Of a DNA stretch of 29,802 nucleotides, positions 1,446 through 19,816 are shown piece after piece. The notes under the pieces were generated by a model. It was not told where the DNA came from, searched no databases, and worked only from the letters and a program-made list of their open reading frames with translations. This stretch comes from a virus: the IMG/VR virus record IMGVR_UViG_3300038738_000024, positions 1 through 29,802 of that record; one strand, 5' to 3'. The translations under genes and the position numbers were made by a program. The first letter of the stretch is position 1. Each line of letters begins with the position of its first letter.

Positions 1446-1466
1446 GCTTATCATCCCTCCCTTAGG

Positions 1467-1494
1467 AAAAAAAGTCGGGGAGCCGCAGCTCCCC
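1467..1494 (-). terminator. Rho-independent terminator between tail operon and lysis genes
   Basis: Read on the minus strand, GGGGAGC-TGCG-GCTCCCC (1477-1494) forms a perfect seven-base-pair GC-rich stem with a four-base loop. It is followed by GAC and seven T residues (1467-1473). It lies after the last small tail gene and immediately before the holin ribosome binding site, so it should reduce or condition lysis gene expression. Confidence 0.8.
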
Positions 1495-1535
1495 ATAAAA
1501 AAACGCCTTCACTCGTAGTTGAGGAATGGCGTCCG

Positions 1536-1667
1536 CTATTGTTGTTCAACTTGTGCGGCTAAAAGCTCGGCAACCGGAGCTTGATATTCTTCCGGAAGCG
1601 TCTCAATCTCGCGGCGTCCGGCTTTGATCAAATAGGCGAATACTTTTACCATGTAAGTCGCAACCAT
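1536..1667 (-). CDS. Small CD1375/XkdX-like phage protein
   Basis: A 43-residue product with the pattern Y-M-V-K-V-F-A-Y-L-I-K-A-G-R-R then I-E-x-L-P-E, ending in an acidic, Gln-rich tail. This resembles the short CD1375/XkdX family (M-x-K-x-Y-x-x-L-I-x-x-G-x-x-T-x-x-x-V-P) that sits between tail-fibre and holin genes in Bacillota phages. The function of the family is unknown to me. The ATG at 1665-1667 follows the AAGGAAGGGATG of the upstream gene's end by a few bases, and the upstream stop TAA (1670-1672) is two bases away. It is followed by the minus-strand terminator at 1467-1494. Confidence 0.7.
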   Translation of the reverse strand: MVATYMVKVFAYLIKAGRREIETLPEEYQAPVAELLAAQVEQQ

Positions 1668-1669
1668 CG

Positions 1670-1852
1670 TTACATCCCTTCCTTCGTCGTCTTGAGTTCT
1701 TCCCGTAATGCTGCCAGTTCCTTTTGCTGCAAAAGTGTCTGCTCGTATAAAGCGGCAATCGCTTCATAAGCATCAGTCAAATCAGGATTCGTCTCGACCT
1801 GCTGCCGAAACCGAAGCTCGGCAAGATCCGTTTGCTTAATGTGCTTTCCCAT
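1670..1852 (-). CDS. Small coiled-coil protein downstream of tail fibre
   Basis: A 60-residue hydrophilic protein. Residues about 27-55 (A-A-L-Y-E-Q-T-L-L-Q-Q-K-E-L-A-A-L) have heptad-like leucine spacing and should form a coiled coil. I do not recognise a family. The position after a large fibre gene suggests a fibre-associated accessory or assembly factor, but this is inferred from position only. The ATG at 1850-1852 is preceded by GGGAGGAAG that overlaps the end of the fibre gene, so it is coupled to it. Confidence 0.7.
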   Translation of the reverse strand: MGKHIKQTDLAELRFRQQVETNPDLTDAYEAIAALYEQTLLQQKELAALREELKTTKEGM

Positions 1853-1863
1853 CGGCTTCCTCC

Positions 1864-5730: not shown

Positions 5731-5752
5731 ATCCCTTACTCTCCTTTCCTGA

Positions 5753-6076
5753 CTATTTCAGCACCACTCTTTTTGCCGTTGAATCAAACACCCCGCTCCA
5801 CAGCCTGATATCGCTGATTTCACGAAAGGTTTCGATGTATATATTCGCATTCACATTGTTCAGAGTGGCTCCCTTGAGGGTCTCCAGCTCGATGGCCAGG
5901 TCGACGATATTGCGTTCATCGTGCACAGCTCGTGTATTCAAGCTGAAAATATTTGCTTGGACATTGGCAAATTCCGAATCGATTAAGTCAAAGTTTCTGT
6001 TGATTTTGCCAGCCCCCGACATCAGGCTATCGGGAGCGGCTGGGTCAAGAGAAATTCGTCCATTGGTTACCGGCAT
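5753..6076 (-). CDS. Hypothetical small tail-region protein
   Basis: A 107-residue protein between two structural tail genes. It starts M-P-V-T-N-G-R-I-S-L-D, continues with I-N-R-N-F-D-L-I-D-S-E-F-A-N-V, and has a possible helical or coiled middle (residues about 25-70). The I-N-x-N-F-x-L-I-D motif is common near the N-termini of proteins that attach phage fibres, but I do not recognise the family. I chose the ATG at 6074-6076, eight bases after AAGGAGG. A GTG two codons upstream lies only two bases from the Shine-Dalgarno sequence. It sits in tight series with its neighbours (13 bp to the preceding stop, 22 bp to the fibre start). Confidence 0.65.
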   Translation of the reverse strand: MPVTNGRISLDPAAPDSLMSGAGKINRNFDLIDSEFANVQANIFSLNTRAVHDERNIVDLAIELETLKGATLNNVNANIYIETFREISDIRLWSGVFDSTAKRVVLK

Positions 6077-6089
6077 GTACACATCCTCC

Positions 6090-7211
6090 TTATGATGTAT
6101 GAACCATCAGATTTCGCGCTTTGGGCGTCACGACCGGCACGGTCGAGCTTTGTTTGATCCGAACGCGAAGCTTGGTGGAAGAGGCAACCGTTTTTTCAAA
6201 CTTCAATTGCGTAAAATCGGCGTCAATCGGTGTCTGTGCAACTGCGCTGCCCATACTCGTCCATGTTTTGCCGGCATCCAGGGAATATTCGACTGTCTGA
6301 CTCGTACCGCTTGGCGTACTCAGTTCCACATAAACGGTAATTCTCGTAAACGGTGCACTCGTAGTAATCTCCCGGCTTACATACATTCCTTCCGGCTTGT
6401 ATCCAAGAGCGATAGCGCCGACATTCTGTTGAACGACTGGAGAAGAGCCCTTTGATTTCAATAGAGCCCGGACGTGAATCATGTCAGTCGGTTGCCCAAG
6501 CTTGGTGACATCGATCTCGTCCAGCGCGTACCACGACATCTCATCAGTTGAGTATTGCCATTGCAGTTCAGCCTTTTGCGGAACGAGCTGGCTGCTGGCA
6601 AGCACGAGCTGAGTAGCCTGGGATACTTCCATCGGACGGAACCGCAAAATGCCGTCACTGGTAAACTTCGCGCCATACAGCCGAAATTTCAAATCCATAT
6701 CCTGGTGGGCTGTCCACGCCGAACCATTGGACGAGGAAAACAGCAATCCAACATCATATGGCTGACGTGCTACTGGTTTCTGTGTTATGAGGTCTTTTGC
6801 TCCCATTCGGGCGACAAAAGCTCTGTACTGCGAGGAAGGGGTCAGCAGGACGATGGCATATTCCGTGTTAGCTTGCAGCAGGACGGGGTCGGGGAAGGTT
6901 ACCTTCGTTGCCGTGGTGCCGTTGTTGGAGATGTTCACCTGATCGGGATTCAACGCGACGGATGTCAGAACAGTCATGGACGGATAACCGTTTACGACTG
7001 TTCGCAGCTGCACCGTCAGATCGGCTGCCGGATCCTTTGTTGCCAAAAACAGGTCCACAGCAGTGATATATCGCTCCTCCGTCAGGATAAACGTCTGCGC
7101 CAGCGGGTCCGTCAAACGCCAGGATGGTATCTGCCAAAATGTCTGTTCAATGACCTGTTTGCGGCCTATTCCGACATAGGATGCCTTTGCTTCGTTTTGC
7201 TTGGTAAACAT
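6090..7211 (-). CDS. Phage tail/baseplate-associated structural protein
   Basis: A 373-residue, beta-rich protein with no membrane segments. The middle (A-Q-T-F-I-L-T-E-E-R-Y-I-T-A-V-D-L-F) resembles receptor-binding or peripheral baseplate proteins that carry jelly-roll domains. A Y-S-L-D-A-G-K-T-W motif around residue 307 is like the repeated sandwich modules of phage tail proteins. In several Bacillota and cyanophage myoviruses such a protein follows a DUF4815 protein, as here. The ATG lies three bases after the upstream stop (TAG AAC ATG) with GAGGTG as ribosome binding site, so it is cotranslated. Assignment to the tail is secure from context; the exact role is not known. Confidence 0.65.
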   Translation of the reverse strand: MFTKQNEAKASYVGIGRKQVIEQTFWQIPSWRLTDPLAQTFILTEERYITAVDLFLATKDPAADLTVQLRTVVNGYPSMTVLTSVALNPDQVNISNNGTTATKVTFPDPVLLQANTEYAIVLLTPSSQYRAFVARMGAKDLITQKPVARQPYDVGLLFSSSNGSAWTAHQDMDLKFRLYGAKFTSDGILRFRPMEVSQATQLVLASSQLVPQKAELQWQYSTDEMSWYALDEIDVTKLGQPTDMIHVRALLKSKGSSPVVQQNVGAIALGYKPEGMYVSREITTSAPFTRITVYVELSTPSGTSQTVEYSLDAGKTWTSMGSAVAQTPIDADFTQLKFEKTVASSTKLRVRIKQSSTVPVVTPKARNLMVHTS

Positions 7212-7214
7212 GTT

Positions 7215-9284
7215 CTACACCTCGTTCCATAGATAGACTTCACGTGTTCCCGTACGGACATTAGGAGGAATCATGAACTTGCATGTGAACCGGCCATTCT
7301 TGTCCGCCCGGATAGTATTTGGCAACGTCCCTGCCAATGTTCCGTTCAACGGAACCAAGTGGACCGGGATTCCGTCAAATGTCCCTTTGATATTGTCGCT
7401 GAACGGCTCAAAGCCCTCGCCAGATACCGTAATCTCTCGCTGCCTGATGTATGGCACGTTCTCGTCCAAAATCATTTTTGTTTCCGTTCGTGTCGTTCCG
7501 GTAGTCCGCCAGTCGGCCCACCATCCCCACACCTTCTTGGTTACGATAGATTCTTCGACCCATGTATCGTGAGAGGGGGTCAGACGGATCGTCGCCAAAT
7601 TTCCAAACACCTGGTAAGGGTTCACGTTCATGGCCTCGGTCGCATACGTCTGATCGATCAGCACTTCCTCCTTGTAAGGCAGTGTCACCAGCCTTTCATG
7701 GAATCGAACCGTAGATGCCTGCTGCTCGACTTGCAGTTCAACAAACGTCTGCTCAAGCGGCAACTGCACCACCTTCTCCCTCGGATTCAACATGGCATCA
7801 AAAAGGGGGTGCGTCACATCCGCCCGTTCAAAGTTTGTAAAGTTATCAGTGAAAATTCCTTTTTTCAGGAGAGTGGGGTCGGAAATCTGGGCTTGTCTGT
7901 CCAAGTCGGCGATGGCTTGGTTGTACTCCGCCCGCTCCAGACGATCCAATAACGATCGGAGCTCCAACATGGTTAACCGTTTCGGCTTCCGGTTGGTCAC
8001 TACGACCGCATCGGAGTTGGGAGGCAGATATATTTCTCCCAGCTCCAGGACATCAGGGGGCGACGATGGCGGATAAGGAGAGATGTCTGACTGACCGTGA
8101 ATTACCTTCACTTCGCCCTCAAATGTTAGATAGTAAACGTCCTTGCGAGCCAAGTAAAACTCATACGTCGTCTGGAATGTCGTCCCTACGACCGGTTTGT
8201 CTCCGCTTAGCCATTTGATGCCGTCGTTCTCCAATTCCACATCGGTTCCTTCGACCATTACTTTCGTATACCGATACGTAACCGTGTAGGAGGTGCCTCC
8301 GGCTGGTTCGGCGCCAGCCAGGGACCAGTCCACTGTATCTCCGGAGAGTTGAAAGTCAACGCTCTTCTTGTACTCGGTGCTTCCCGCCCTCACGGAAACG
8401 ATGTCGACGACAGGCGTTTTCGGCAACATATCGGAAGTGCCCGCCACGTTGCCGCGTGTGATCGTATCGGTTCGCTCAACTGTCGCAGTCACCTGGCGAA
8501 TAGCCTTCACCGGCTTGGTATTAAGCGGATAATAGCTTGTTCCAGCGAGGTACGTCTTCGTTTCATTGACCACCATTCTCGTATCCAACGCCTTCGGTAT
8601 GGATACTCGAATCGGAACGAGCTTGTCAATCTGATAGCCGAGAACATATGCCCGTCCGGCATCGACCACCAGCGTCACATTTTCAGCATCCTTCGGCTCG
8701 ATATAACCATCCATGCCGGATACCAAAAAGGAACCGTTCGTATCATAGGTACGGCGTGCAAAGACCGGTGTAAAGCCTTCTAACTCCGGCGGAAGTTTCG
8801 CTGTCACCAACTCCCCGTCCACCAGTCGAAACATCGGCGTCGCCGCTTCATCGTTTAGTGTCCACGCCGGTTCAATGATAGTTCGCTGTCCACCGGGCAT
8901 TCCGTAATTGGAAAACCCAACCGCTGGATCGTACAGGGTTGGGTCATCTTCGTAAGTGAGGCTTCGTGTTTCGACTCGAAGGCCGATGCTCTCCTCTCCC
9001 GCCCCGCTGATGGTCAGCGTTGTTTCCGGCAGATCATGGATGATGCCGTCCAAATACACGCGGGCGGGAGAGATGCGCAAAAGTGTTTTGTCTGCACTAA
9101 TATAAAGTTGACCGCCGTCGATAATATGGCCGGCACCAAAAATCACATCGCCAATCTGCTTGTCCCTGAACAGCGACATAGCCTGCAGTTCATTCAGTTC
9201 GGCGGTTTGAATCCGTCTGCCACCGACAAAATCGATAGACTTCCATCGTTTCGAAGGATCAAAGCGATTATAAACCTGTTTCAT
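7215..9284 (-). CDS. DUF4815-like phage tail protein
   Basis: A 689-residue protein. The N-terminus (Y-N-R-F-D-P-S-K-R-W followed by G-R-R-I-Q-T-A-E-L-N-E-L-Q) is characteristic of the DUF4815 family of large structural proteins of myophages. These are thought to be peripheral baseplate or fibre-network components; that role is family knowledge and inference. The rest is beta-rich with a helical segment (about residues 445-480, ML-E-L-R-S-L-L-D-R-L-E-R-A-E-Y-N). The C-terminal part (about 590-689) includes an Ig-like stretch, T-V-S-G-E-G-F-E-P-F-S. AAAGGAGGTTTATC precedes the ATG. PBSX itself lacks such a protein as far as I recall, so the distal baseplate differs from the classical Bacillus tail. 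Confidence 0.75.
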   Translation of the reverse strand: MKQVYNRFDPSKRWKSIDFVGGRRIQTAELNELQAMSLFRDKQIGDVIFGAGHIIDGGQLYISADKTLLRISPARVYLDGIIHDLPETTLTISGAGEESIGLRVETRSLTYEDDPTLYDPAVGFSNYGMPGGQRTIIEPAWTLNDEAATPMFRLVDGELVTAKLPPELEGFTPVFARRTYDTNGSFLVSGMDGYIEPKDAENVTLVVDAGRAYVLGYQIDKLVPIRVSIPKALDTRMVVNETKTYLAGTSYYPLNTKPVKAIRQVTATVERTDTITRGNVAGTSDMLPKTPVVDIVSVRAGSTEYKKSVDFQLSGDTVDWSLAGAEPAGGTSYTVTYRYTKVMVEGTDVELENDGIKWLSGDKPVVGTTFQTTYEFYLARKDVYYLTFEGEVKVIHGQSDISPYPPSSPPDVLELGEIYLPPNSDAVVVTNRKPKRLTMLELRSLLDRLERAEYNQAIADLDRQAQISDPTLLKKGIFTDNFTNFERADVTHPLFDAMLNPREKVVQLPLEQTFVELQVEQQASTVRFHERLVTLPYKEEVLIDQTYATEAMNVNPYQVFGNLATIRLTPSHDTWVEESIVTKKVWGWWADWRTTGTTRTETKMILDENVPYIRQREITVSGEGFEPFSDNIKGTFDGIPVHLVPLNGTLAGTLPNTIRADKNGRFTCKFMIPPNVRTGTREVYLWNEV

Positions 9285-9296
9285 GATAAACCTCCT

Positions 9297-9827
9297 TTAC
9301 AGCTCCAGAATGTACTCGATGCTTTCCCGGTTTGTCGCTTCTCGCTCAACAGGCGATTGATTGGTAACTGTTAACAAAAAGCCCAAGTCAACGATTTCAT
9401 CCATGGTTGCAACCTGTTTGTTTACCGGCAATCCTTGAGCGAGGAGTGTCCCTGCATACACCCCTGTTTGACGGTATGTGCAAAGCGGAAACTCGTCGTA
9501 TCGAAGCCACGCCTGAATATAAACCCACCGGCAATCGGTGGCCCGCGCTTCCTCCTCGTCGATGATTCGCCATTTCTGCCCAACCTGTTCGATTGTCCCG
9601 TTTGTGTCGTCAGGCAAGACGAATCTCACCTGGTCGGCTCGTTTGAGAGCCACAATTTCGGAGATCGTTTGACCGTACTGCACATCTGGAACAATCTCGG
9701 GCGAATGGCTGTCCCAAGACGAAGTTCTTCCTACCGCTATAAAGACTTGACCGTTTCTGACCAGGTTAAAGGCCTGGAACGTTTTCATCCCTTTTACATC
9801 GCTTGTTTTCGTAGCTATGGGAAACAC
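9297..9827 (-). CDS. Possible gp8-like baseplate wedge protein
   Basis: A 176-residue protein with the stretch F-N-L-V-R-N-G-Q-V-F-I-A-V-G-R-T-S-S-W-D, followed by I-V-A-L-K-R-A-D-Q-V-R-F-V-L-P. The 'hydrophobic-G-R-x-x-x-W' pattern after an N-terminal strand resembles T4 gp8-like wedge proteins of cyanophages and jumbo myophages (…FYLAIGRSxPW…). The homology is my inference and needs profile confirmation. The start is uncertain. The GTG at 9825-9827 lies almost on top of its AGGGGG ribosome binding site, three bases after the preceding stop. An ATG at residue 14 (MKTFQAF) has only a weak AAAAGGG before it. It sits between YmfQ-like and DUF4815-like genes. Confidence 0.6.
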   Translation of the reverse strand: MFPIATKTSDVKGMKTFQAFNLVRNGQVFIAVGRTSSWDSHSPEIVPDVQYGQTISEIVALKRADQVRFVLPDDTNGTIEQVGQKWRIIDEEEARATDCRWVYIQAWLRYDEFPLCTYRQTGVYAGTLLAQGLPVNKQVATMDEIVDLGFLLTVTNQSPVEREATNRESIEYILEL

Positions 9828-9830
9828 CCC

Positions 9831-10553
9831 CTAAGTCGTTATCGATACATTGCTTTTTTGTATCCGTAATGTTTGAGTCAAATAGGTCGCCTGTTCAAGA
9901 AACGTGATATTTGGCGACCACCAGCTTTTCCGGTCGCACCCGGCAGTATGGAGGGCGTACTGTTCGACGTGATGACTCGACTGCTTTTCATTGCCGCTCA
10001 AGTCATCGTCGGTCCTGTCTGGCATCGTAACGGCGGTGTACAGGTTCATGCCTGCCCGAGAAGTTCCACGTTGATACTCTACGTGATGGGACAATGAAAC
10101 GGAAAACAGGTAACGAAATCCGGCCAGACCCATCAGTGCGACAAGACCACGGGCAATAGCCAGTGTTTCCGGTGTCGTATAGATAACAGACGACAACGGA
10201 GAAAACTCCCAACCGTCTGCAAGCACTCCCGATTCCGACAGTTCTACCCCCGCCTCCGGCATCAGCCTATACGATTCCTGCAAGCCGAAGCCTTGCGTCT
10301 TGAGTGTCTCGACGCTCATCGTTCCGTTTGACCGCAGCTTGGCAAGCAACTCTTCATCGTCTTTGGCGTCTAATTCTTTTCTCCATAACTCACGTGACGC
10401 ATCTGATTGCAGATGGACAAAAAACGCCTTCCACAGTTCGCCGTCAACGTCCGGAAGCTCTTTTCCCGCTGCATCCATGATTGCCCGGATATGACGACTC
10501 TTTCGGTAGTATCCGGGCAAATAGACCATTAATTTGTCACCTGGTGTGCTCAT
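9831..10553 (-). CDS. YmfQ/XkdU-like tail protein (DUF2313 type)
   Basis: A 240-residue protein beginning with L-M-V-Y-L-P-G-Y-Y-R-K-S-R-H-I-R-A-I-M-D, followed by E-L-W-K-A-F-F-V-H-L and A-S-R-E-L-W-R-K-E-L. This is the usual N-terminal layout of YmfQ/gpI-like phage proteins that follow baseplate J in PBSX-type and Mu-type clusters and are thought to connect the wedge to the fibres. It is followed by an unusual His-rich segment around residues 185-210 (SLSHH, KQSSHHVEQYALH). It overlaps the baseplate J gene by four bases (ATGA). Confidence 0.75.
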   Translation of the reverse strand: MSTPGDKLMVYLPGYYRKSRHIRAIMDAAGKELPDVDGELWKAFFVHLQSDASRELWRKELDAKDDEELLAKLRSNGTMSVETLKTQGFGLQESYRLMPEAGVELSESGVLADGWEFSPLSSVIYTTPETLAIARGLVALMGLAGFRYLFSVSLSHHVEYQRGTSRAGMNLYTAVTMPDRTDDDLSGNEKQSSHHVEQYALHTAGCDRKSWWSPNITFLEQATYLTQTLRIQKSNVSITT

Positions 10554-11302
10554 TCGATCGTCACCACCGGATCTATTTGAGCATCAGGGAAAAGAATCAC
10601 GTTTTCGGTCGGCGTGACCATGGATGCGTCCGCTGCTCCTGCGTTGATAACTGCCGACAAAATTCTGGCTGCGTAAAGTGTTCCGCCTACGCCGATTGTT
10701 CGGGTATAATCCAAAATCGCTTGTTTCGCTTTCTCGGCTTCAATCCCAATCGCCTGAACAATGATCGGTACCGTTTGCATGCGAACGCGGCGTACAACTG
10801 CATCCACTCCGCTTGGCTTGCGCCGATTGATCTCTTCCTGCACTCGCTCCACCAGATCGGGGATTGTGCCGCCCACGACGACGTCCACTGTGCCAATACC
10901 TCTTGCCATGTCTATTGCCTTGGCGTAAGTCGTACCCGTCACTTTGAGGGCCCACCGAACATAATCAGCTTCCGCTCCGCCACGCTCCGGGTTTCTCTTC
11001 TGCTGAAGGATCCGCTCACGCAAAGATTCGTCCGATTCTCCCGGCGCCCGCTTTAGACCATGATCTTCCGCAATCTGGTCCAGATACTCTCCTTTGGCAG
11101 TTACGGCAAAGGCTTGTTCCAATATCTCCCGGAACTTTTCCTGTTGAATGAACAATTCAAGGGCAATGGGGGCCAGTGCATCGTAAATGATCGATCCTTC
11201 GCTTTTATCCAGATCATCCGGGGCTGCTTGCAGCAAGCGATACAAGATTTCTTCAAAAGATTCCGACTCGATTCCCTTTACTGCTTTTACTGTTTCAGAC
11301 AT
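10550..11302 (-). CDS. xkdT: Baseplate J-like protein (XkdT family)
   Basis: A 250-residue protein of the gpJ/gp47/XkdT family, a wedge component of contractile-tail baseplates. Typical features are E-S-F-E-E-I-L-Y-R-L-L near the N-terminus, G-E-Y-L-D-Q-I-A-E-D-H-G-L-K-R (residues about 72-86) and E-S-D-E-S-L-R-E-R-I-L. R-G-I-G-T-V-D-V-V-V-G-G follows around residue 137. It is shorter than PBSX XkdT (about 350 residues) as I recall. The start lies eight bases inside the upstream XkdS reading frame and the end overlaps the YmfQ-like start by four, so translation is coupled at both sides. Confidence 0.85.
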   Translation of the reverse strand: MSETVKAVKGIESESFEEILYRLLQAAPDDLDKSEGSIIYDALAPIALELFIQQEKFREILEQAFAVTAKGEYLDQIAEDHGLKRAPGESDESLRERILQQKRNPERGGAEADYVRWALKVTGTTYAKAIDMARGIGTVDVVVGGTIPDLVERVQEEINRRKPSGVDAVVRRVRMQTVPIIVQAIGIEAEKAKQAILDYTRTIGVGGTLYAARILSAVINAGAADASMVTPTENVILFPDAQIDPVVTIE

Positions 11303-11732
11303 CGATCACCATCTCCACCGTTCCGTCTTCCACAATCAATAAAAAAAAGATTTGTAACGTATTGCCGCTCCACCGGAATGAAAACTTCTCGCACCGCTCT
11401 ACCCCAAACAGATACTCAACTGCCTCCCGGACCAACCGTTTGGCTTCCGCCTGCTTCCATTCCCTTGTGCCATCGCCGCGGATTAGCGTTTTTAGCTCAT
11501 TGCCGTAGTCCGATGAGTAGATCGGGAAGGTGTAGCGGTCAGTCATGAGCGCTTTTTTTACGTTTTGTATCAACGCGGCCTCCCCCTCAATAATGGAAGG
11601 CTTCCCTCCTGGACGGAGCACAAAATCTCCTGCATCAAAGTCAAACGCATATGTTCGCAATACAGGGACAATCGGCTTTTTTCCTTCTGTTCCCGGGTTT
11701 TCTACCCGGGTCATTTCCGGGAATATACTCAT
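11295..11732 (-). CDS. xkdS: XkdS-like baseplate protein (DUF2634, gp25-like)
   Basis: A 145-residue protein with the DUF2634/gp25-like signature: T-Y-A-F-D-F-D-A-G-D-F, G-E-A-A-L-I-Q-N-V-K-K-A-L-M-T-D-R-Y, P-I-Y-S-S-D-Y-G-N-E-L and V-R-E-A-V-E-Y-L. gp25-like proteins form the conserved core of the wedge where the sheath begins. It sits between XkdR and XkdT as in PBSX and overlaps XkdR by four bases. Confidence 0.85.
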   Translation of the reverse strand: MSIFPEMTRVENPGTEGKKPIVPVLRTYAFDFDAGDFVLRPGGKPSIIEGEAALIQNVKKALMTDRYTFPIYSSDYGNELKTLIRGDGTREWKQAEAKRLVREAVEYLFGVERCEKFSFRWSGNTLQIFFLLIVEDGTVEMVIDV

Positions 11733-12160
11733 AACCCCACCACCCGGTCCATAATGTAGTAAGCTGAATTGACGGAAAGAACGAGGACCTTATCATCCGG
11801 CTTCAGAACGTCCTCAAACTGCATCTCTACATAGCTGTGCTTGTACGATGTGAAAGGGGCAGCCAGATCGTCCGTATCCAAAAAGTCCTCCCGTTTCGCA
11901 TCTCCCAGGTCTCGCTCGGCCATCTCTTGATGGCTGATGGTCACAATGCGTTTGTGGCGTGTCAAATGTTCCGCCACCGTGAGGAATTCCTTCCCGAGTG
12001 GAACAGACATGCCGTCAATCAAGATTTTCAAATCGGGTGGAGGTGTTAATACCGTAGCCAGTTCGATCCTGATCTCTTTCGGAGCTGTTTTGAATGTTTT
12101 GCTTCCTTGGTCTTGACCAAGATTCGATAAGGCATACGCCAGCTTTTGGAATCCATTCAC
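11729..12160 (-). CDS. xkdR: XkdR-like tail protein (DUF2577)
   Basis: A 143-residue protein with L-A-T-V-L-T-P-P-P-D-L-K-I-L-I-D-G, L-T-V-A-E-H-L-T-R-H and L-K-P-D-D-K-V-L-V-L-S-V, the pattern of DUF2577/XkdR. In these clusters XkdR lies between the hub protein XkdQ and XkdS. Its role is usually assigned to the central spike/hub region; this is family-level knowledge and the sequence itself shows no enzyme motif. It overlaps both neighbours by four bases. Confidence 0.85.
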   Translation of the reverse strand: MNGFQKLAYALSNLGQDQGSKTFKTAPKEIRIELATVLTPPPDLKILIDGMSVPLGKEFLTVAEHLTRHKRIVTISHQEMAERDLGDAKREDFLDTDDLAAPFTSYKHSYVEMQFEDVLKPDDKVLVLSVNSAYYIMDRVVGL

Positions 12161-13149
12161 CTGCCGCTCACCTCCATCTGCAAATCCAATTTCATTTCAT
12201 GATAGCCAGGCCGTATCGTATGGCTGTCGCCAAAAACAGTGAAGATCCCGGAAAGCTTGGTCAGCTCCTCGTATATCTCGATCCGCGTACCCGCGATAAC
12301 ATCATCGATCCCGAGCGCTGTCACGGAAGCCTGCTCCTTCACGCGGCTCAGATTCTCCAGCTCTTGTTTGGCTATCGAGATTTTGTTGTCGCGATCTTCG
12401 TCTTGTAATTCGATTACTTTTACGAGGTGACCATACCGCTTGGCTTTGGCGGAGTCTACTTCATCGTGAAGAACAGAAACGTATTCACTGTCACTTCCGA
12501 TGACTCTCACGACCGTTCTCATTTCTGCTATCGATCGTTTCCGTTCTGCGCTTAGCAGGTTGCTGCCTTGCTGCAATGTCCATTGCTTGGTTTGGCCGCG
12601 CTGTGTACCCACAAATGCTTTTCCCTGATCAATCCAGCACCAGTAGCGGATTCCCGATGAACGGTACACCTGATTCAAAATGTCCGTTACCGCATCCCAT
12701 ACGCTTTTTCCGCGAATCGTTTGCTTTTCGACCGGAGGCATCTTGCCGATCCCTCCCACCGGTATCCCGCGCTGCTCAAAAATACGAAGGAGAAGCTGAT
12801 CGGCTGGTTCTCCTGTGGTCACGACAACGACATCGTTGTTTAACAAGTAGAAACCGAAGTCATAGGCAACCGGATTCAGATCACCCTTGGACGTGATCCC
12901 CAAATCAACAACCATACCCGTAAACAGAGTGCGTGGCGAACCTGATACGTACGATATCAATTCCATTAGGTCGCCTTCTTCGATAGCTGCGTCTGGCCAA
13001 AACCGGTCTCGTCCGTTATTTGTTTTGACCGCGAGCGTTCTTTTTGCCTCCTGACGGCTTCCAGACCAAGTTGCTTCCGTAAAAGGGAGTCGAACCGCCT
13101 GTTGGCCAGGCTTTTGAAATTGGATTTCATAATGGTACCTGGGCAGCAT
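12157..13149 (-). CDS. xkdQ: XkdQ/YqbQ-like baseplate hub protein
   Basis: A 330-residue homologue of XkdQ (gpD/gp27-like hub) that forms the central ring at the end of the tail tube. Visible family features are A-T-W-S-G-S-R-Q-E-A-K-R-T-L near residue 27, F-T-G-M-V-V-D around 75, L-L-N-N-D-V-V around 103 and S-V-W-D-A-V-T-D-I-L around 150. The C-terminal segment ends D-D-V-I-A-G-T-R-I-E-I-Y. Its length matches PBSX XkdQ (about 325). The ATG is preceded by AAAGGAG, and the XkdP gene ends six bases upstream. Confidence 0.85.
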   Translation of the reverse strand: MLPRYHYEIQFQKPGQQAVRLPFTEATWSGSRQEAKRTLAVKTNNGRDRFWPDAAIEEGDLMELISYVSGSPRTLFTGMVVDLGITSKGDLNPVAYDFGFYLLNNDVVVVTTGEPADQLLLRIFEQRGIPVGGIGKMPPVEKQTIRGKSVWDAVTDILNQVYRSSGIRYWCWIDQGKAFVGTQRGQTKQWTLQQGSNLLSAERKRSIAEMRTVVRVIGSDSEYVSVLHDEVDSAKAKRYGHLVKVIELQDEDRDNKISIAKQELENLSRVKEQASVTALGIDDVIAGTRIEIYEELTKLSGIFTVFGDSHTIRPGYHEMKLDLQMEVSGR

Positions 13150-13155
13150 CCGGAT

Positions 13156-13731
13156 CTACTCCTTTCCCTTTGACTTCGATCTCGAGAGATATTTTTCAAC
13201 GAGAGTTTGCTTCTCATCACTCGTTTTTTTTGTAGAGGAAACTTTGGCTTTTTTCGTATCCGGGCGTTTGCCTTTCCCTGTCGTTTGGAAAGGGATATTC
13301 ACGGAGCGGCTCTCCAGCGTAACGAACCGATACTCTTTCAGCGTTAAACTGAATTCAATATCAAAGCCATTCCACTCGTAACTGAAATCTCGGATGGTGA
13401 CAGGGACATTGATGTCGCTCCCGGTCACCGTAAAACGAATCGGGTATCCGGTGTTCTTCCAGCGCTTGATGGTCGACACGAACTCTTCTGGCGAGGGGAA
13501 GCCGTCGTAGTCACAAAATCCCGGATCGTATTGATCAGGCCAGATTGTCGAGAATGAATACTCCTCCAATTTTGGCTCACCAATGATCGTGGCTTCTCCA
13601 ATAGCTACAAGGTCGATATCTGTAAAACCGTGTCCGGTCTTTACCGATATAGTCGCCGGAATGACGGGCAGCCGAAGCTTTTCCGTGTTGTTGTTCCAAG
13701 TGAGCCAAAACTCAAGATGCTTGGTTTTCAT
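13156..13731 (-). CDS. xkdP: XkdP-like tail protein, apparently without LysM
   Basis: A 191-residue protein with the XkdP/gp53-type N-terminal domain: L-P-V-I-P-A-T-I, G-E-A-T-I-I-G-E-P-K-L-E-E-Y, S-P-E-E-F-V-S-T-I-K-R-W and V-T-I-R-D-F-S-Y-E-W. It should connect the hub to the distal tube. PBSX XkdP ends in a LysM peptidoglycan-binding domain. Here the last 40 residues are a lysine-rich, low-complexity tail (K-R-P-D-T-K-K-A-K-V) with no LysM pattern. I chose the ATG at 13729-13731, eight bases after GGAGG. A longer reading would start within the upstream terminator. Confidence 0.8.
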   Translation of the reverse strand: MKTKHLEFWLTWNNNTEKLRLPVIPATISVKTGHGFTDIDLVAIGEATIIGEPKLEEYSFSTIWPDQYDPGFCDYDGFPSPEEFVSTIKRWKNTGYPIRFTVTGSDINVPVTIRDFSYEWNGFDIEFSLTLKEYRFVTLESRSVNIPFQTTGKGKRPDTKKAKVSSTKKTSDEKQTLVEKYLSRSKSKGKE

Positions 13732-13749
13732 CTCACCTACCTCCAATGA

Positions 13750-13781
13750 AAAAGACGCCCCTCGCATGAAGAGCGTCTTTT
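13750..13781 (-). terminator. Rho-independent terminator after the YbjQ-like gene
   Basis: On the minus strand AAAAGACGC (13773-13781) pairs perfectly with GCGTCTTTT (13750-13758), and the T-run continues to 13749. It lies just after the stop of the 86-residue gene at 13787 and before the XkdP ribosome binding site, splitting the tail operon. Confidence 0.8.
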
Positions 13782-13786
13782 GGTAT

Positions 13787-14047
13787 TTACTTGTATTTTA
13801 CTGCGGTGCCGTAGCCAGTGTGCAAAGCCCCATTTAAACTATACCGAAAACAAATGACGGCATCTGCTCCTTGCTCTTTGGCCTTCTCCCCAATTAAATC
13901 CAGAATAAAATTAAAATCGTTTGTAACTTTTGGGGACGTTACAATTACTGTCCCTAGTGGCTCATAGTCCCGATTTAATTTATCCGAGGTTATGACCAAG
14001 ATACGAGACTCATTGTTCGGTTCTTTTTTTCCGCCAAAAATACCCAT
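13787..14047 (-). CDS. YbjQ-like small protein, moron-like insert in the tail cluster
   Basis: An 86-residue protein. After a basic start (M-G-I-F-G-G-K-K) it reads I-L-V-I-T-S-D-K-L then E-P-L-G-T-V-I-V-T-S, and later A-K-E-Q-G-A-D-A-V-I-C-F-R-Y and G-Y-G-T-A-V-K-Y. This is reminiscent of the YbjQ/UPF0145 family (A-x-x-L-G-A-D-A-V-I-x-V-R-Y…G-T-A-V). The similarity is weak, and the function of that family is unclear. It has no obvious structural role in a tail. With its own terminator, a candidate promoter and palindrome upstream, and more AT-rich DNA than the flanks, it fits the definition of a phage moron. TAAGGAGGGTATTGAT precedes the ATG. Confidence 0.65.
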   Translation of the reverse strand: MGIFGGKKEPNNESRILVITSDKLNRDYEPLGTVIVTSPKVTNDFNFILDLIGEKAKEQGADAVICFRYSLNGALHTGYGTAVKYK

Positions 14048-14082
14048 ATCAATACCCTCCTTAGCAGAAGATATTCTATGGT

Positions 14083-14113
14083 AGGTAAAATTTTACCTTC
14101 TAACCAATAACAC
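14083..14113 (-). promoter_or_regulatory. 16-bp palindrome and possible promoter before the YbjQ-like gene
   Basis: AGGTAAAATTTTACCT at 14083-14098 is a perfect palindrome 35-50 bp upstream of the start codon. On the minus strand it lies between TTAGAA (possible -35, immediately upstream) and TAGAAT (possible -10, 14074-14079), with a 19-bp spacer. This geometry is typical of a repressor operator. The promoter elements are weak, and operator function is inferred only from symmetry and position. Confidence 0.4.
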
Positions 14114-14192
14114 TCTACATGTTTCTATTGAATGACCTTCATTACAAGCCATTTTGGATCGCGATTGATTATGATAACCATTTTTCAAAATC

Positions 14193-16538
14193 TTACTCAA
14201 GGGCGACCGTACCGGTTCCTGATAAAACATGGTTCAATCGATTAGCAATGGTTTCGGCCAATCTCTCAGCGAGCTGATTCAAATCGTCTCTATTGTTTAA
14301 GTTGTCGGTTTTCAATGAAACCTGGATTGTTGGACGGAAATCAACATAGGTCTGATTTTTACCAGGTTGACTTACTCCATCCTGGGCAATCGCACTGCTG
14401 TTAGTCAAAGAAGGTGTGTAACTTGGAACTTGACTGAAGCTTCCTTCCAAAGCCTGAATCAAAGAATCATTGCCTGCCTCCACACCTATCGCCATAGTCT
14501 CGGGGATTGCCATACCGCTTTCAGTCAAACGCGAGAACGGTCCCAGCTCCGCATCAGAGTGAGGAAGGTATTGATCTGCTCCTCCAAACACTGCGACGAG
14601 AGCACTAGTAACAGTACCTCCAACCGACAATATACCGTCTACAAGTGTGGTAATGATACTCTGACCACTCCCAAACAATTTGCTGATCCAGCCGTCAAAC
14701 CAGCCGTCTATCGTAGTAAATGTGTTGAAGAACGTCGTTTTGATCGTATCCCAGGCACCTGACCAATCCCCGGTTATGAACTGGACGAAAGCTGTAAATA
14801 ATCCTCTCCAGAATTCAAATAGCGTTCTGAAGTAAGCAGATAATCCTTCCCAAATCGCAAAACCGACACTGCTGATCCATTGCCAAGTCGAAGCCAAATA
14901 GGCGCTGACCGTCCCCCAGTTATCATACAGCCACCAACCTGCGGCAATCAGCGCGATGACAGCAGCGGTAACCAAAAGAATCGGCCACAGCGCAGTCAAG
15001 GAAGCGAGTCCAAAACCGCTCATAACCCCAATCATTGCTGCGAACCCTTGCGTCAATGGTAGCCAAATTGTAGCCAAGAACATCAACGGGCCAGCAAGCA
15101 GACCCAAGACAGAAAGAAGCATCAGAAAAGACACCGCTACCTTCGTGATAAATGGATGTTCTTTCGCAAAAGACCCAATGCCTTTCGCTATCTCTGTTAG
15201 CACCCCGACAATTGGCTTTACAATATTCAATACGGTATCGCCAATTGGTTGGATGGCGAGCCTCATTTCATTTGCCATAGCTTTCCAATCATCCTTCACT
15301 TGGTCAACGATTGCCCCTGTTTTCCCAGCGAACTCCTCCAAAGGTCCAGCATTTAGCATAGCAAAAGTAGCTTCACGCCCAAGGTCGGCGTACTGTCCTT
15401 TAAAAATGGCGGACATGATGTTATCCTGTGCAGCCTGATCTTCTAACGACATAATCCCTTTTATAATGTCGGAAACGGCTGCCTCAGCCTCTTTTCCTCC
15501 CGCTTTTAGTTGATCCAGCATGGCAAACAGCTTTTCTTCCCCAAATATCGGCTCAAGTGCTTTCAAAGCCCCTTCGTCCAGTGCTTTGTTCAGGTTTTTA
15601 CTAAACCCCTGTTTGAACACTTCTCCCAGACCGCCGAAGCTGGACGCCCCTGCTTCTGTACCTGCTACAAACATGCCCATCATTTTTTCCGCGCTAATCC
15701 CGGCTTCTTTAAAATACGGGGAATACTTCCCGATGCTCTCTAGGATGTCACCCGCTTTCGTGCCGACTCTATCGTAAGCCGCAGTGATCAAATCGAGGCC
15801 TTTTACCGGGTCTGTTCCCCACTGTTCTTGCATCATATCCAGTGCTTTGGCTATATTGTCTTGATCAAGCTTGCCGAAAGAGATCTTTTCCAAAGCCAGC
15901 GCTCCCTCGGCCGCCTTTTCGATATCCTGGTGGGTGCCCGTCAACAGTTGGCGAAATCTACCGAAAGACTCTGTTGCCTGTCTTGGAACGTCTACCAAGC
16001 CCGAGGTGTACAACCCATGAACAGATTTGGACATGGAGATCATCTCCGCATCTGTTGCACCTACTTTAGCCTGAAGGATGTCCATGGATTGTTCCATGTC
16101 ATAGGCCGATGTCGCTGCAAAGGATAAACCATCCTTTACCATTTGTCCACCGGACGAAAGAATGTTCCCCAATTCTTGCATTTGACCGACAGCTTTCTCT
16201 ACAGACTCTATAGATTTAGCTGCATTTTCTCCTGCCTTCCCTGAATTCCGCAAAGCCCGATTCAAATGATCAATATTGCTGCTGTCAACTGAATCGACTG
16301 CTTGTTCAACCTGGGCTATCTTATTGGCTGCTTTGGCCGCGTCAAAATAAACCTCTGTGAAGGCTACACTTACATTCACAATGGAAATGTTGGTAATGCG
16401 ATTGATCGTTCTTGCTAAATCAGAAATGGCATCGTCGATTTTTTCCAATACGTCAAGAACGCTGTTCAAGCTTTTCATGAGAGAGGAGAGCTGCTTGGAC
16501 ATGTTCCCTTGAATTTCAGGATTTGTACTGTTTCCCAC
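14193..16538 (-). CDS. Tail tape measure protein (XkdO-like)
   Basis: A 781-residue protein in the usual tape-measure position after the chaperones. The N-terminal quarter is helical and Gln/Ala-rich. A TP901/PhageMin tail region (about 130-400) contains F-A-A-T-S-A-Y-D-M-E-Q, K-V-G-A-T-D-A-E-M and G-T-E-A-G-A-S-S-F-G-G-L-G-E-V-F-K-Q-G-F. Two or three long hydrophobic segments follow around residues 470-560 (VAVSFLMLLSVLGLLAGPLM, then WPILLVTAAVIALIAAGWWL). The C-terminal part ends in a conserved-looking V-D-F-R-P-T-I-Q-V-S-L-K segment. At about 0.15 nm per residue (a known rule of thumb), 781 residues predict a tail near 115 nm, shorter than PBSX. The GTG start follows GGAGGAGGT. Confidence 0.9.
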   Translation of the reverse strand: MGNSTNPEIQGNMSKQLSSLMKSLNSVLDVLEKIDDAISDLARTINRITNISIVNVSVAFTEVYFDAAKAANKIAQVEQAVDSVDSSNIDHLNRALRNSGKAGENAAKSIESVEKAVGQMQELGNILSSGGQMVKDGLSFAATSAYDMEQSMDILQAKVGATDAEMISMSKSVHGLYTSGLVDVPRQATESFGRFRQLLTGTHQDIEKAAEGALALEKISFGKLDQDNIAKALDMMQEQWGTDPVKGLDLITAAYDRVGTKAGDILESIGKYSPYFKEAGISAEKMMGMFVAGTEAGASSFGGLGEVFKQGFSKNLNKALDEGALKALEPIFGEEKLFAMLDQLKAGGKEAEAAVSDIIKGIMSLEDQAAQDNIMSAIFKGQYADLGREATFAMLNAGPLEEFAGKTGAIVDQVKDDWKAMANEMRLAIQPIGDTVLNIVKPIVGVLTEIAKGIGSFAKEHPFITKVAVSFLMLLSVLGLLAGPLMFLATIWLPLTQGFAAMIGVMSGFGLASLTALWPILLVTAAVIALIAAGWWLYDNWGTVSAYLASTWQWISSVGFAIWEGLSAYFRTLFEFWRGLFTAFVQFITGDWSGAWDTIKTTFFNTFTTIDGWFDGWISKLFGSGQSIITTLVDGILSVGGTVTSALVAVFGGADQYLPHSDAELGPFSRLTESGMAIPETMAIGVEAGNDSLIQALEGSFSQVPSYTPSLTNSSAIAQDGVSQPGKNQTYVDFRPTIQVSLKTDNLNNRDDLNQLAERLAETIANRLNHVLSGTGTVALE

Positions 16539-16541
16539 CGG

Positions 16542-17170
16542 CTACCTCCTCCTCCCTTTCATACGTCGTCCTTTCGTTCGCTCCATTTTCTCGGCTTGCT
16601 CCGCTTTCCTCTCAATCTCCATCGCTGTCGAAACTAAGATGAACTGTCTCTCCCGCTCTGTGAGCTGCATAATCTCGTGCGGGAAAATATTCTTTTCTTG
16701 CCAAATATACGAATAGAGAGCCAGCTCAGGGCTCTCTTTTATGAGTTTTTTACCTCTTCCTCTGCCTCCTCGTCGTCGGCAAAATCGCTGATTCGGGCAA
16801 TGGCCTCGTACAGCGAATCAATCTCACTTGGTCGGAAGATGCAAGGAATGACGTCAACAGCTGCAATTTTGCCGAATTTGGCGAGTACCTGCGGAGAGTC
16901 AATGCGGAAGTCGGTACGCTCTGTATCGATGCCGGCAATAATAATCTCCGCCTTCTGACGCAGGTCGTCAAACTCGACTTTGCGCTCCGCTTTGCCCTTT
17001 TTGCCCAACACGGATACCTTCAGAGCCGCCTTTCTTGCCTTGAAATATACCTCGCCAGATACGGAGCGGATGGGAAGCGCAACCTCTCTGCGCTTCCACA
17101 ACCATACATCCTTTACGTGCTCCTGGGTGTCCATACTCAAAAATTCTTCCATCGTCAAAAATTCACTCAC
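16542..17170 (-). CDS. Tail assembly chaperone, -1 frameshift fusion product
   Basis: A second reading frame downstream of the XkdN-like gene is open from the slip site (16745-16751) to the TAG at 16542-16544. It encodes S-P-E-L-A-L-Y-S-Y-I-W, F-P-H-E-I-M-Q-L-T-E-R-E-R and a basic end, G-R-R-M-K-G-R-R-R. It has no convincing start of its own. A -1 slip at A-AAA-AAC gives a fusion of about 209 residues, the analogue of lambda gpGT and of the frameshifted chaperones of other long-tailed phages, which bind the tape measure during assembly. The fusion stop lies three bases upstream of the tape-measure GTG start, and the purine-rich end of this frame supplies its Shine-Dalgarno sequence. Confidence 0.8.
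16715..16751 (-). promoter_or_regulatory. Programmed -1 frameshift site: slippery heptamer plus hairpin
   Basis: On the minus strand, A-AAA-AAC at 16745-16751 is in the correct phase (GTA AAA AAC TCA TAA). Seven bases downstream, AGAGAGCC (16730-16737) pairs perfectly with GGCTCTCT (16715-16722) across a seven-base loop. Slippery sequence, spacing and stem match the standard signal for -1 programmed frameshifting. Confidence 0.85.
16739..17170 (-). CDS. xkdN: XkdN-like tail assembly chaperone (unshifted product)
   Basis: A 143-residue protein of the XkdN type, placed between tube and tape-measure genes. It starts M-S-E-F-L-T-M-E-E-F-L-S, contains W-L-W-K-R-R-E-V-A-L-P-I-R-S-V and I-I-A-G-I-D-T-E-R-T-D-F, and ends in an acidic tail, D-D-E-E-A-E-E-E-V. 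This product is normally made in excess over the frameshifted form. The GTG start at 17168-17170 has AGGAGG eight bases upstream. Its stop codon (16739-16741) lies three bases downstream of the slippery heptamer. Confidence 0.85.
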   Translation of the reverse strand: MSEFLTMEEFLSMDTQEHVKDVWLWKRREVALPIRSVSGEVYFKARKAALKVSVLGKKGKAERKVEFDDLRQKAEIIIAGIDTERTDFRIDSPQVLAKFGKIAAVDVIPCIFRPSEIDSLYEAIARISDFADDEEAEEEVKNS

Positions 17171-17196
17171 GGTTGTTTCCTCCTCTTCCCCTATTT

Positions 17197-17598
17197 TTAA
17201 ATAAACTCGTAGTCGTCGACTGTGCCTTCCAGAGTCGTGTCTTCATCCAGCTCGCCATGCCCCCATTTTGCCAAAACGAGGGAGTCGGGAGAAAAGCCAG
17301 TAACAGCGACACGATACTTCCCAGCGACCGGATCATTTAGTTCGCCGATAAAATTGACCTTCTTTTCCGGATTAGCGGCGATTTCCTTAATAATTTCCTG
17401 GACGTCTGCCGTCCGTTCAAAAGTAGCAGTCATGCTGACCGAAGAAGACAATACGCGGTGACTTTTGCGGAGTCGACCCGCACGCTTGCTTTCTCCTTTT
17501 TCAAATTCCTCGGTAAGCTCAAATCCGATGCATTCCGGAAGCTCTTTGCCGTTTTGGTTGTAAAAATGCCCATGGGTACCCGAAAAAGTTGCTGCCAT
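17197..17598 (-). CDS. xkdM: Tail tube protein (XkdM-like, DUF2001)
   Basis: A 133-residue inner tube subunit. Family features are F-S-G-T-H-G-H-F-Y at the N-terminus, E-C-I-G-F-E-L-T-E-E-F-E-K and the central K-S-H-R-V-L-S-S-S-V-S-M-T-A. The C-terminal segment is G-E-L-D-E-D-T-T-L-E-G-T-V-D-D-Y-E-F. Its length and its position after the sheath gene agree with XkdM of PBSX, which stacks as hexameric rings inside the sheath. GAGGTGAAGTGAC precedes the ATG. Confidence 0.9.
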   Translation of the reverse strand: MAATFSGTHGHFYNQNGKELPECIGFELTEEFEKGESKRAGRLRKSHRVLSSSVSMTATFERTADVQEIIKEIAANPEKKVNFIGELNDPVAGKYRVAVTGFSPDSLVLAKWGHGELDEDTTLEGTVDDYEFI

Positions 17599-17609
17599 GT
17601 CACTTCACC

Positions 17610-19025
17610 TCAATTCGATTTGTTGTAAATATAGATTTTTTCGAGCGCATCTTGGTGCCGGAAGCCGGCGATAAAATGTCCAGCGTTGCGAGCCGGCGTA
17701 TAAATGGCGTTATCCCCGTGGTAATCCGGGTCCTCGATGTACTCGTAGTCATCAGCGATTACCTCAAGCATTGCCAGAGGCTTGAACACTTCCCGTTTCA
17801 TCATCTGACAAAAAGCCGCACGCCGTGCAGGACTGTTGCTATTGGGCTGCTGACGAATCCATTCCTTTCCTGCCTTCTCTTCCGCGTGCAAAATGGTATG
17901 GAATGTATCAGCTACTCGGATTTTTCCGTAGTCTTTTGACTGGTTGGGCCCCGGAATCGTCAGCGTGTTTACAGGCTCCTGAATGATCACCCGGTTGTTG
18001 TCCGTGTTCAGCATGAGAACGCCAGCTTGTACCATTTCAATCAAGTCTGTACCTTCATCCCACTCCACAGTCAGAGACTCAAATGGTGTGATGTACAGAG
18101 CCATCGTATAATTGAGCGGCATGGATGCCATGAGTGAGGCAATATAGATAGCAAGCTTGGCACTGTGATAGGTTTTTCCTCTCCAGTGAACCCCGCTCCC
18201 CACATTGACAACGGCCATATGGTTGGCATCCGTAGATGCTTTCATGGTCGCCTTCTTGTCTTTATCTCTGTTGCTGTCGCCGCCAAAAACAAACTTGACG
18301 TAGTTTCCGATCTCACATTGCTGCTTCGTCCAGTCCTCTGCAGCAGCGTTCAAAGCCGGGTCGGCGATTCCCAATGTAAACACACCGAATTTGCCTTTCT
18401 GTGTAGCCAAAGCGTTTTGATAGGCGGTATACTTTGTGGCCTCCACGCTTGTTCCGCTGTTTCCGCCAGACAGGATGACCCCCGCCGTTGGATCAGGCAG
18501 CCCATCGGCCAGCTTTTTGAGTACAACAAATTCACTGCCTTGGAAAGCTTCGACCAGCTCGTCGACGGTCCCGCCTGTCTGATTGTCTACCAACTCCGCA
18601 CCTCGATAAACGAGTACATCGATTTTCGTATGGTCGATGAGATTAGGCTGTACGACAACTTTCAGGCTGTTGCCCAACTCGCCTTTGTGCTTTGCTTCCA
18701 CCTTCAAAACTTCGGTGGCAGCGCCCTTCAATGTTGCGCTTGCGGCAGCAGCGCTCTCACCAGCCACCCGATAGAGCAAAACTTCTGTCGGATGCGGATC
18801 GGACGCCCAAATCAACTCAAATTCTTCCGTCGCACCAAAAATTTTCTGAGCAGAGGCTTTTGTACGGACGGTTACAAACTCCCCGATCGGCCCCCAATGA
18901 GCCACGATAGGAAGAGCCAGCTTCCCGCGAATCCCCATTGTTGTCTGCTCTTTGATAAACGACTTTAAAAAAGAGTACACGCCGGACAGCGCTTTTTCTT
19001 CTCCCGGTTGATATAGTCCCGCCAT
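17610..19025 (-). CDS. xkdK: Contractile tail sheath protein (XkdK-like)
   Basis: A 471-residue sheath subunit, the defining protein of a contractile (myovirus or R-type) tail. Visible features are G-I-R-G-K-L-A-L-P-I-V-A-H-W-G-P-I at about 30-46, the A-T-E-V-L-K-V-E-A-K-H-K-G-E-L-G-N strand region near 110, and K-T-Y-H-S-A-K-L-A-I-Y-I-A-S-L-M-A-S around 290. The C-terminal domain includes N-T-D-N-N-R-V-I-I-Q-E-P-V-N-T-L-T. The length matches PBSX XkdK (about 466). The ATG directly follows the stop of the small upstream gene (TAAATG), indicating translational coupling. Confidence 0.92.
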   Translation of the reverse strand: MAGLYQPGEEKALSGVYSFLKSFIKEQTTMGIRGKLALPIVAHWGPIGEFVTVRTKASAQKIFGATEEFELIWASDPHPTEVLLYRVAGESAAAASATLKGAATEVLKVEAKHKGELGNSLKVVVQPNLIDHTKIDVLVYRGAELVDNQTGGTVDELVEAFQGSEFVVLKKLADGLPDPTAGVILSGGNSGTSVEATKYTAYQNALATQKGKFGVFTLGIADPALNAAAEDWTKQQCEIGNYVKFVFGGDSNRDKDKKATMKASTDANHMAVVNVGSGVHWRGKTYHSAKLAIYIASLMASMPLNYTMALYITPFESLTVEWDEGTDLIEMVQAGVLMLNTDNNRVIIQEPVNTLTIPGPNQSKDYGKIRVADTFHTILHAEEKAGKEWIRQQPNSNSPARRAAFCQMMKREVFKPLAMLEVIADDYEYIEDPDYHGDNAIYTPARNAGHFIAGFRHQDALEKIYIYNKSN

Positions 19026-19229
19026 TTAAACCGCCTTCCTTTCCTTAAACTTCTGAATCCATTGCTCTGCCTCGGCGACCGTCATCTCCGCCGGTGCATC
19101 AAAAAAGGCGGCAATTGCTTCGGTTCGGTTTACCCCAAACTTTTGCTCAGCCACCTTCATGATTTGGTCTTTCGCATACGTTACCGATGCTTGGTCCATG
19201 TCAATTTCCTTTGATTTTGCGCGAGCCAT
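19026..19229 (-). CDS. Small hypothetical protein before the tail sheath
   Basis: A 67-residue protein with a basic N-terminus (M-A-R-A-K-S-K-E-I-D), a helical middle (T-Y-A-K-D-Q-I-M-K-V-A-E-Q-K-F-G) and W-I-Q-K-F-K-E-R-K near the end. Small helical proteins commonly occur just before XkdK in PBSX-type clusters, but I do not recognise the family. The start overlaps the upstream gene by 29 bases, with AAGGAG nine bases before the ATG. Confidence 0.7.
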   Translation of the reverse strand: MARAKSKEIDMDQASVTYAKDQIMKVAEQKFGVNRTEAIAAFFDAPAEMTVAEAEQWIQKFKERKAV

Positions 19230-19695
19230 ACATCTTGTCTCCTTTTCTTAATGTCTCATCGTACCGTCGATGAATCACTTCCAATGGATCGTATTCCATC
19301 GGGGTATACGGGATATATGCCGTATACACAAGCTCGATTGATCGGTCAAAGCCATTTGGTTTGTACATCGTCAATCGACATTCCCGCAGAAACCCTACCT
19401 GCTGCTTGTCTGCACTGTAGAGCGGGAGGATCCAGCCCCGGTCTGCAAGACTCTGTCTAATCAGCAGAGACACATCCGTAAGCTGTTTATCATCCATTGC
19501 CATCAGGACAACATTCATTGTCGCCTTTTCCCGATAGACATCTGCCCTACGTGGTTCCGCGGTGCGCGAGGGCTCCTCGACGATCCACAATGGGCGTTGA
19601 AACTCATCTGGAGCCCTGAATGTTTCGGTTGGAATGCCCGTTGCGAGATTCAGCCAGCTGCATACCGAGAATACATCATCGCCCATGTTTCCCAC
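19201..19695 (-). CDS. XkdJ-like tail completion/terminator protein
   Basis: A 164-residue protein immediately upstream of the sheath region, where PBSX carries XkdJ. It contains V-C-S-W-L-N-L-A-T-G, R-P-L-W-I-V-E-E-P-S-R and Y-R-E-K-A-T-M-N-V-V-L-M-A. L-L-I-R-Q-S-L-A-D-R-G-W-I-L-P-L-Y and E-L-V-Y-T-A-Y-I-P-Y follow. These resemble tail-completion proteins that cap the tube and would join a head; the assignment rests mainly on position. I chose the GTG at 19693-19695, about ten bases after AAGGAGG. Its first codons overlap the end of a truncated upstream reading frame. Confidence 0.65.
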   Translation of the reverse strand: MGNMGDDVFSVCSWLNLATGIPTETFRAPDEFQRPLWIVEEPSRTAEPRRADVYREKATMNVVLMAMDDKQLTDVSLLIRQSLADRGWILPLYSADKQQVGFLRECRLTMYKPNGFDRSIELVYTAYIPYTPMEYDPLEVIHRRYDETLRKGDKMYGSRKIKGN

Positions 19696-19816
19696 TCGGA
19701 ACAAACCTCCTTGCTAATTGGTTGAACTTCACTGTTACCAACTCATCCATGGTTGACTGCTCTACGTTGCTTCCCGTATTAACCACCTTTGAAAGCACCA
19801 CCACCCCATTGAATCG
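19676..19816 (-). pseudogene. 46-codon remnant upstream of the XkdJ-like gene
   Basis: After an in-frame TAA (19817-19819) the frame reads R-F-N-G-V-V-V-L-S-K-V-V, then S-T-M-D-E-L-V-T-V-K-F-N-Q-L-A-R-R-F-V-P and ends K-H-G-R-stop. The stop overlaps the next gene in the coupled style of the rest of the tail cluster. No ribosome binding site or ATG precedes it except an internal M-D-E-L. It looks like the C-terminus of a lost head-tail joining gene (XkdH/XkdI region), which would mark the break point where the head module was removed. The family is not recognised. Confidence 0.45.

Follow-up and report, generated by a model that had tools for sequence, protein, structure and literature searches.

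The stretch of viral DNA analysed here (29,802 nucleotides, referred to as the window) carries at the 3′ end of its tail assembly chaperone gene a site which we consider, with a probability of about 95%, to be a programmed −1 ribosomal frameshift signal of the lambda G/G-T kind. A minority of translation events would then yield a G-T fusion protein of 209 aa. The positions of the relevant features are summarized in Table 1.

Table 1. Chaperone gene, elements of the putative frameshift site and neighbouring tail genes in the window
Feature	Position	Strand	Basis or remark
G, XkdN-like tail assembly chaperone, zero frame, 143 aa, GTG start	16739..17170	(-)	Pfam, PHROG and PDB profile matches
Slippery heptamer A_AAA_AAC, in phase (GTA AAA AAC)	16745..16751	(-)	Identical in 187/190 relatives
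Zero-frame stop TAA, one codon past the heptamer	16739..16741	(-)	
7-nt spacer TCATAAA	16738..16744	(-)	
Stem-loop, 8 bp with 7-nt loop	16715..16737 (arms 16737..16730 and 16722..16715, loop 16729..16723)	(-)	
T, -1 frame, 69 codons, C-terminal part of the G-T fusion	16542..16751	(-)	Begins KKLIKESPELALYSYIWQEK, ends GRRR before the stop
Tape-measure protein, GTG start at 16538	14193..16538	(-)	PHROG 28, E 1.5e-42
Tail tube protein (XkdM-like, DUF2001)	17197..17598	(-)	Pfam PF09393, E 4.1e-26
Tail sheath protein	17610..19025	(-)	Pfam PF17481, E 1.7e-15

Architecture of the putative frameshift site

G was identified by its match to the Pfam model PF08890 (Phage_TAC_5; 66.1 bits versus a cut-off of 27, E 4e-18), by its assignment to PHROG 389 ('tail protein XkdN-like') and by a profile match to PDB entry 3klu (YqbN, E 4.6e-25). 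When we searched with its structure (Foldseek), 3klu was also the best match, but a weak one (E 0.024). The gene sits between the tail tube and the tape-measure genes, the order being tail tube, G, T, tape measure.

The 3′ end of G reads GAG GTA AAA AAC TCA TAA, and A_AAA_AAC occurs only once in the whole gene. A reading of the window made from the letters alone (the sequence-only reading) had described an in-phase A_AAA_AAC, a seven-base spacer and an eight-base-pair stem directly before the stop of this gene. All of these elements are present on the minus strand, but the stem follows the stop codon, since the stop falls within the spacer. For the stem-loop (16737..16715), a folding energy of −13.1 kcal/mol was predicted. 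The −1 frame, which had been described as open for about 66 codons up to the tape-measure start, indeed comes close to it: its 69 codons, both lysine codons of the heptamer included, end at a TAG (16544..16542) that is separated from the tape-measure GTG by 3 nt. The fusion would add 67 codons past the slip to reach its 209 aa.

Within the window's genes (8,884 codons), A_AAA_AAC was found in phase three times, and the copy in G is the sole one near a gene end. From base composition, an open frame of 69 codons has a probability of about 0.013. The stability of the stem-loop in this sequence by itself was not significant (z −1.62), and since the stem is unremarkable in one sequence the case rests on the comparison with relatives. 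GGGAAAG, another heptamer close to a stop (gene at 13156-13767), was discarded as a candidate; its −1 frame stops after only 13 codons.

Conservation among close relatives

Close relatives were found with the G protein in Brevibacillus borstelensis, B. porteri, B. fulvus and viral contigs. The sequence-only reading had made its case depend on conservation in close homologues, and we found that heptamer, 8-bp stem and second frame were all kept in 14/14 other distinct close relatives. It had also proposed an alignment of the −1 frame as a check for purifying selection. This alignment, carried out with 15 distinct close sequences (window included), was in its favour: the pooled pN of the T frame was 0.10 and pS 0.67, with a dN/dS of 0.066. 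Synonymous sites of T are near saturation in these sequences and the amino acids are held. For the remaining two frames of the same DNA, pN/pS values of 1.5 and 2.0 were obtained, and stop codons interrupt them in nearly all sequences. Compared with B. borstelensis NRRL NRS 818, the window shows a few synonymous and zero amino-acid changes in G and T.

All 8 stem pairs are kept in the 15 distinct close sequences, where the only changes are from A-U to G-U and from C-G to U-G. Fully compensatory stem changes were thus absent from the window's own group, which counts against the stem and the frameshift. Of the degenerate codons with an invariant amino acid, 3/7 were frozen in the stem region and 1/19 elsewhere in T, which is a small sample.

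Heptamer and stop in the wider XkdN family

For a broader comparison, 190 loci with a readable stop were gathered with the Pfam model or through tblastn searches with the G protein, together with phage records; the motif was not used for selection. The set contains some redundancy; T is represented by 161 distinct DNA sequences and 132 distinct proteins. When the window's G was used in tblastn against phage records it gave zero matches; a more typical family member retrieved 35 records. In 187/190 loci an exact in-phase A_AAA_AAC was found, and the stop codon ends 3 or 6 nt away from it. The zero-frame stop is the next codon after the heptamer in 170 loci and comes one codon later in 17. Judged from these sequences, conservation of the putative shift site in the XkdN family is far beyond chance.

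The three exceptions differ in kind. At L039 the site is present and the stop comes later; translation gave the frame pair VVEDLKNSS / KKLIRTDG, which ruled out that this locus lacks the heptamer. At L121 the zero frame is broken. In Streptococcus phage EJ-1 (L081, 1841-1920), G and T are joined in-frame by one additional A ahead of the heptamer, a fusion absent from the close relative MismyG; the shift may not be indispensable there, or the record may be in error (natural fusion versus sequencing error). Apart from these, the T frame is broken at L060.

RNA structure downstream of the heptamer

The 50 nt past the site were compared in 68 clusters (80% T identity) with shuffles that preserve the T protein and its codons. 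The downstream RNA was more stable than these synonymous shuffles (mean z −1.66, SE 0.21), and p<0.05 was reached in 47% of the 68 clusters. Most relatives, the main sister group among them, carry a stem that is different from and longer than that of the window, with the same 7-8 nt spacer. Pairing in the main sister group was quantified by direct pair counting in 48 sequences taken as in register: 71% of the cells were paired as compared with 44-60% in slid controls, and compensatory types occurred at some pairs. Since no stable downstream structure was found in some clusters (L036, L065, L067, L085), the stem appears to be helpful but not universal.

GAGGAGG, located 13 nt before the heptamer, was considered as a Shine-Dalgarno-like stimulator and rejected. 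In L007, L009 and L032 this motif is interrupted or shifted in position, and something similar was found in only 32/187 loci. Probably these letters are just acidic codons.

The T part and its annotation

T forms one homologous family of 38 aligned members in which KKL is invariant. The structural model of T consists of helices (mean pLDDT 83); since a structure search with it gave no match below E 0.001, no fold is claimed. It had been stated that the downstream frame has no start codon of its own. This is correct for the first 27 codons, but ATGs occur from codon 28 onward (16670, 16622, 16586, 16562), the first of which has no obvious Shine-Dalgarno sequence when judged by eye. The residues upstream of residue 28 include ESPELALYSYIWQEK, a tryptic peptide. 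In most members T is conserved from its first residues, ahead of any start codon.

No model in Pfam or NCBIfam covers T. Four PHROG families of 'unknown function' (20560, 10943, 33439, 5646) match 16 to 31 of the 38 T-frame relatives, and the window's own T alone falls below threshold against them. From these matches, the four families very probably are detached T parts. The prediction that ordinary gene calling would miss T was accurate for five of the eight annotated phage records checked (MismyG, phiC2, phiOH2, jlb1, AQ113), but in Jimmer1 (gp22) and Abouo (gp18) a short piece is called from an internal start. The remaining record is that of EJ-1 with its in-frame fusion.

The tail gene cluster

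The site lies in a cluster (109-19704) that includes sheath, tube, chaperone, tape-measure, baseplate and fibre genes as well as genes for holin and endolysin; family-library scans recognised no genes for head, portal or terminase there. In B. borstelensis, host genes flank the cluster on both sides. The headless cluster (window as well as L212/L213) has aceA/aceB/serS on one side and, in B. borstelensis, a sigma-factor-like gene pair on the other. These flanks were read as open frames, part of which were scanned against family libraries. In B. porteri and B. fulvus, the sister elements are prophages that possess portal and head genes. Because of the tail genes without head genes, the host flanks and the headed relatives, we regard the cluster as a candidate contractile tailocin that descends from a headed prophage of this kind. 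Since G and T differ only synonymously from their counterparts in NRRL NRS 818, the frameshift arrangement would have been kept after head loss.

Several other features of the cluster were recorded. The tape-measure gene is 78% identical to that of NRRL NRS 818, whereas the other cluster genes exceed 99%. The divergence begins right at the junction between T and the tape-measure gene, and the two proteins are nearly equal in length (781 vs 780 aa), which looks like an allele swap. Behind the tape-measure gene, the NRRL strain (L212 6359-7045) carries about 590 bp more than the window does around 14100-14190, and this extra segment holds an open frame of 180 aa that the window lacks. At 1864-5730 the window encodes a probable fibre protein of 1,288 aa with a match to an Ig-like Rha78A_N domain; it is possibly the target-binding part.

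Discussion

According to the proposed mechanism, most ribosomes would terminate at the TAA at 16739 and release G. The stem, and perhaps the adjacent stop codon too, would hold a minority of the ribosomes at the heptamer. These would slip one base back on A_AAA_AAC and read on in the T frame to complete G-T. Both the occurrence of slippage and its rate are inferred. In tandem slippage of the HIV/IBV type, the Lys and Asn tRNAs are chosen in the zero frame before the slip. The main junction should therefore read V-K-N-L-I-K-E, both tRNAs having already been chosen. V-K-K-L-I-K-E, the junction put forward by the sequence-only reading, would be a minor form that fits a shift preceding A-site decoding and is not the main form expected from textbook tandem slippage. 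One observation that counts against the mechanism comes from E. coli, where A_AAA_AAC allows far less slippage than A_AAA_AAG does (Atkins et al., 2016; PMC5009743).

The fusion might also arise without any ribosomal slippage if RNA polymerase slipped on the A run and added a base to the mRNA. In bacteria, RNA polymerase is known to slip on runs of A or T, and a six-A run is present at the site. However, such slippage would favour longer runs, and in 187/187 loci the run consists of exactly six A with a C behind it, and the base ahead of it is never an A (T in 132, C in 55). Nor would it depend on codon phase or on a stem at a distance of 7-8 nt downstream, and we regard this explanation as very improbable. 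Even less credible is that ribosomes restart at an internal ATG and thereby produce T as a small protein of its own. ATGs are available from 16670 onward and Jimmer1 gp22 and Abouo gp18 have been called in this way, but the conservation of T begins about 20-28 codons ahead of the usual first start codon, a few T frames lack any start codon, and restart leaves the invariant heptamer unexplained.

One might further argue that a cluster without head genes could be a decaying prophage, in which a frame-breaking mutation left an open frame behind and the motif is accidental. Conservation across Bacillota together with the low dN/dS has already refuted this idea, and the exclusively synonymous differences in G and T between the window and NRRL NRS 818 also speak against it; we assign it next to no weight. 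A programmed −1 ribosomal frameshift is thus the reading that we prefer.

The closest parallel is lambda, where G coats the tape measure and T binds the tube subunit, neither protein is found in the finished tail, and G and G-T are produced at a molar ratio of 30:1 (Atkins et al., 2016; PMC5009743). For a cluster of HK97-like chaperones, 6-7% slip was measured (Antonov et al., 2013; PMC3711429). As here, the lambda gene lies between the tube and tape-measure genes, the −1 shift takes place at a heptamer in the 3′ end of the first gene, and near the site the short second frame lacks a start codon of its own. Different from lambda are the contractile tail of the PBSX/XkdN kind, the heptamer that is always A_AAA_AAC, the stop that abuts or nearly abuts it and the presence of a downstream stem; the likeness is one of gene order, −1 phase, heptamer and short second frame. 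By analogy, G of the window would coat the tape measure, its T part would recruit the tail tube subunit, and G-T would link both. The ratio of G to G-T would matter for this reason.

For the XkdN/YqbN family of PBSX-like elements (PF08890; 3klu), the models and the phage records examined cover only the zero-frame part of the gene. The four PHROG families that match T relatives are not linked there to the chaperone gene. The PBSX-like phage tail-like particle of B. laterosporus (PMC9406221) likewise involves a Brevibacillus contractile tail cluster with XkdN, but that is a different cluster with a terminase gene nearby, and frameshifting is not mentioned there. A description of frameshifting in XkdN genes was not found in the open literature; an earlier mention is possible, as Xu, Hendrix and Duda (2004) was outside the scope of this search.

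A tentative and rather doubtful extension is that the XkdN family follows one fixed design, in which A_AAA_AAC is abutted or nearly abutted by the stop and stems of differing shape have re-evolved at a constant spacer of 7-8 nt. The stop itself may then belong to the signal, in that slow termination would make slips more frequent and thereby set the G:G-T ratio for contractile tails, and the design would persist in tail clusters after head loss.

Frameshifted tail chaperones are already known from lambda, and the XkdN case is a well-supported further example. To these chaperones, the XkdN/PBSX-like contractile tails of Bacillota would add a large and uniformly coded branch. This would explain the gap before the tape-measure gene, which is blank in the phage records examined or is occupied there by a truncated hypothetical protein. 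The four PHROG families now have a likely role and could be renamed, and the invariant heptamer makes the putative slip site easy to find.
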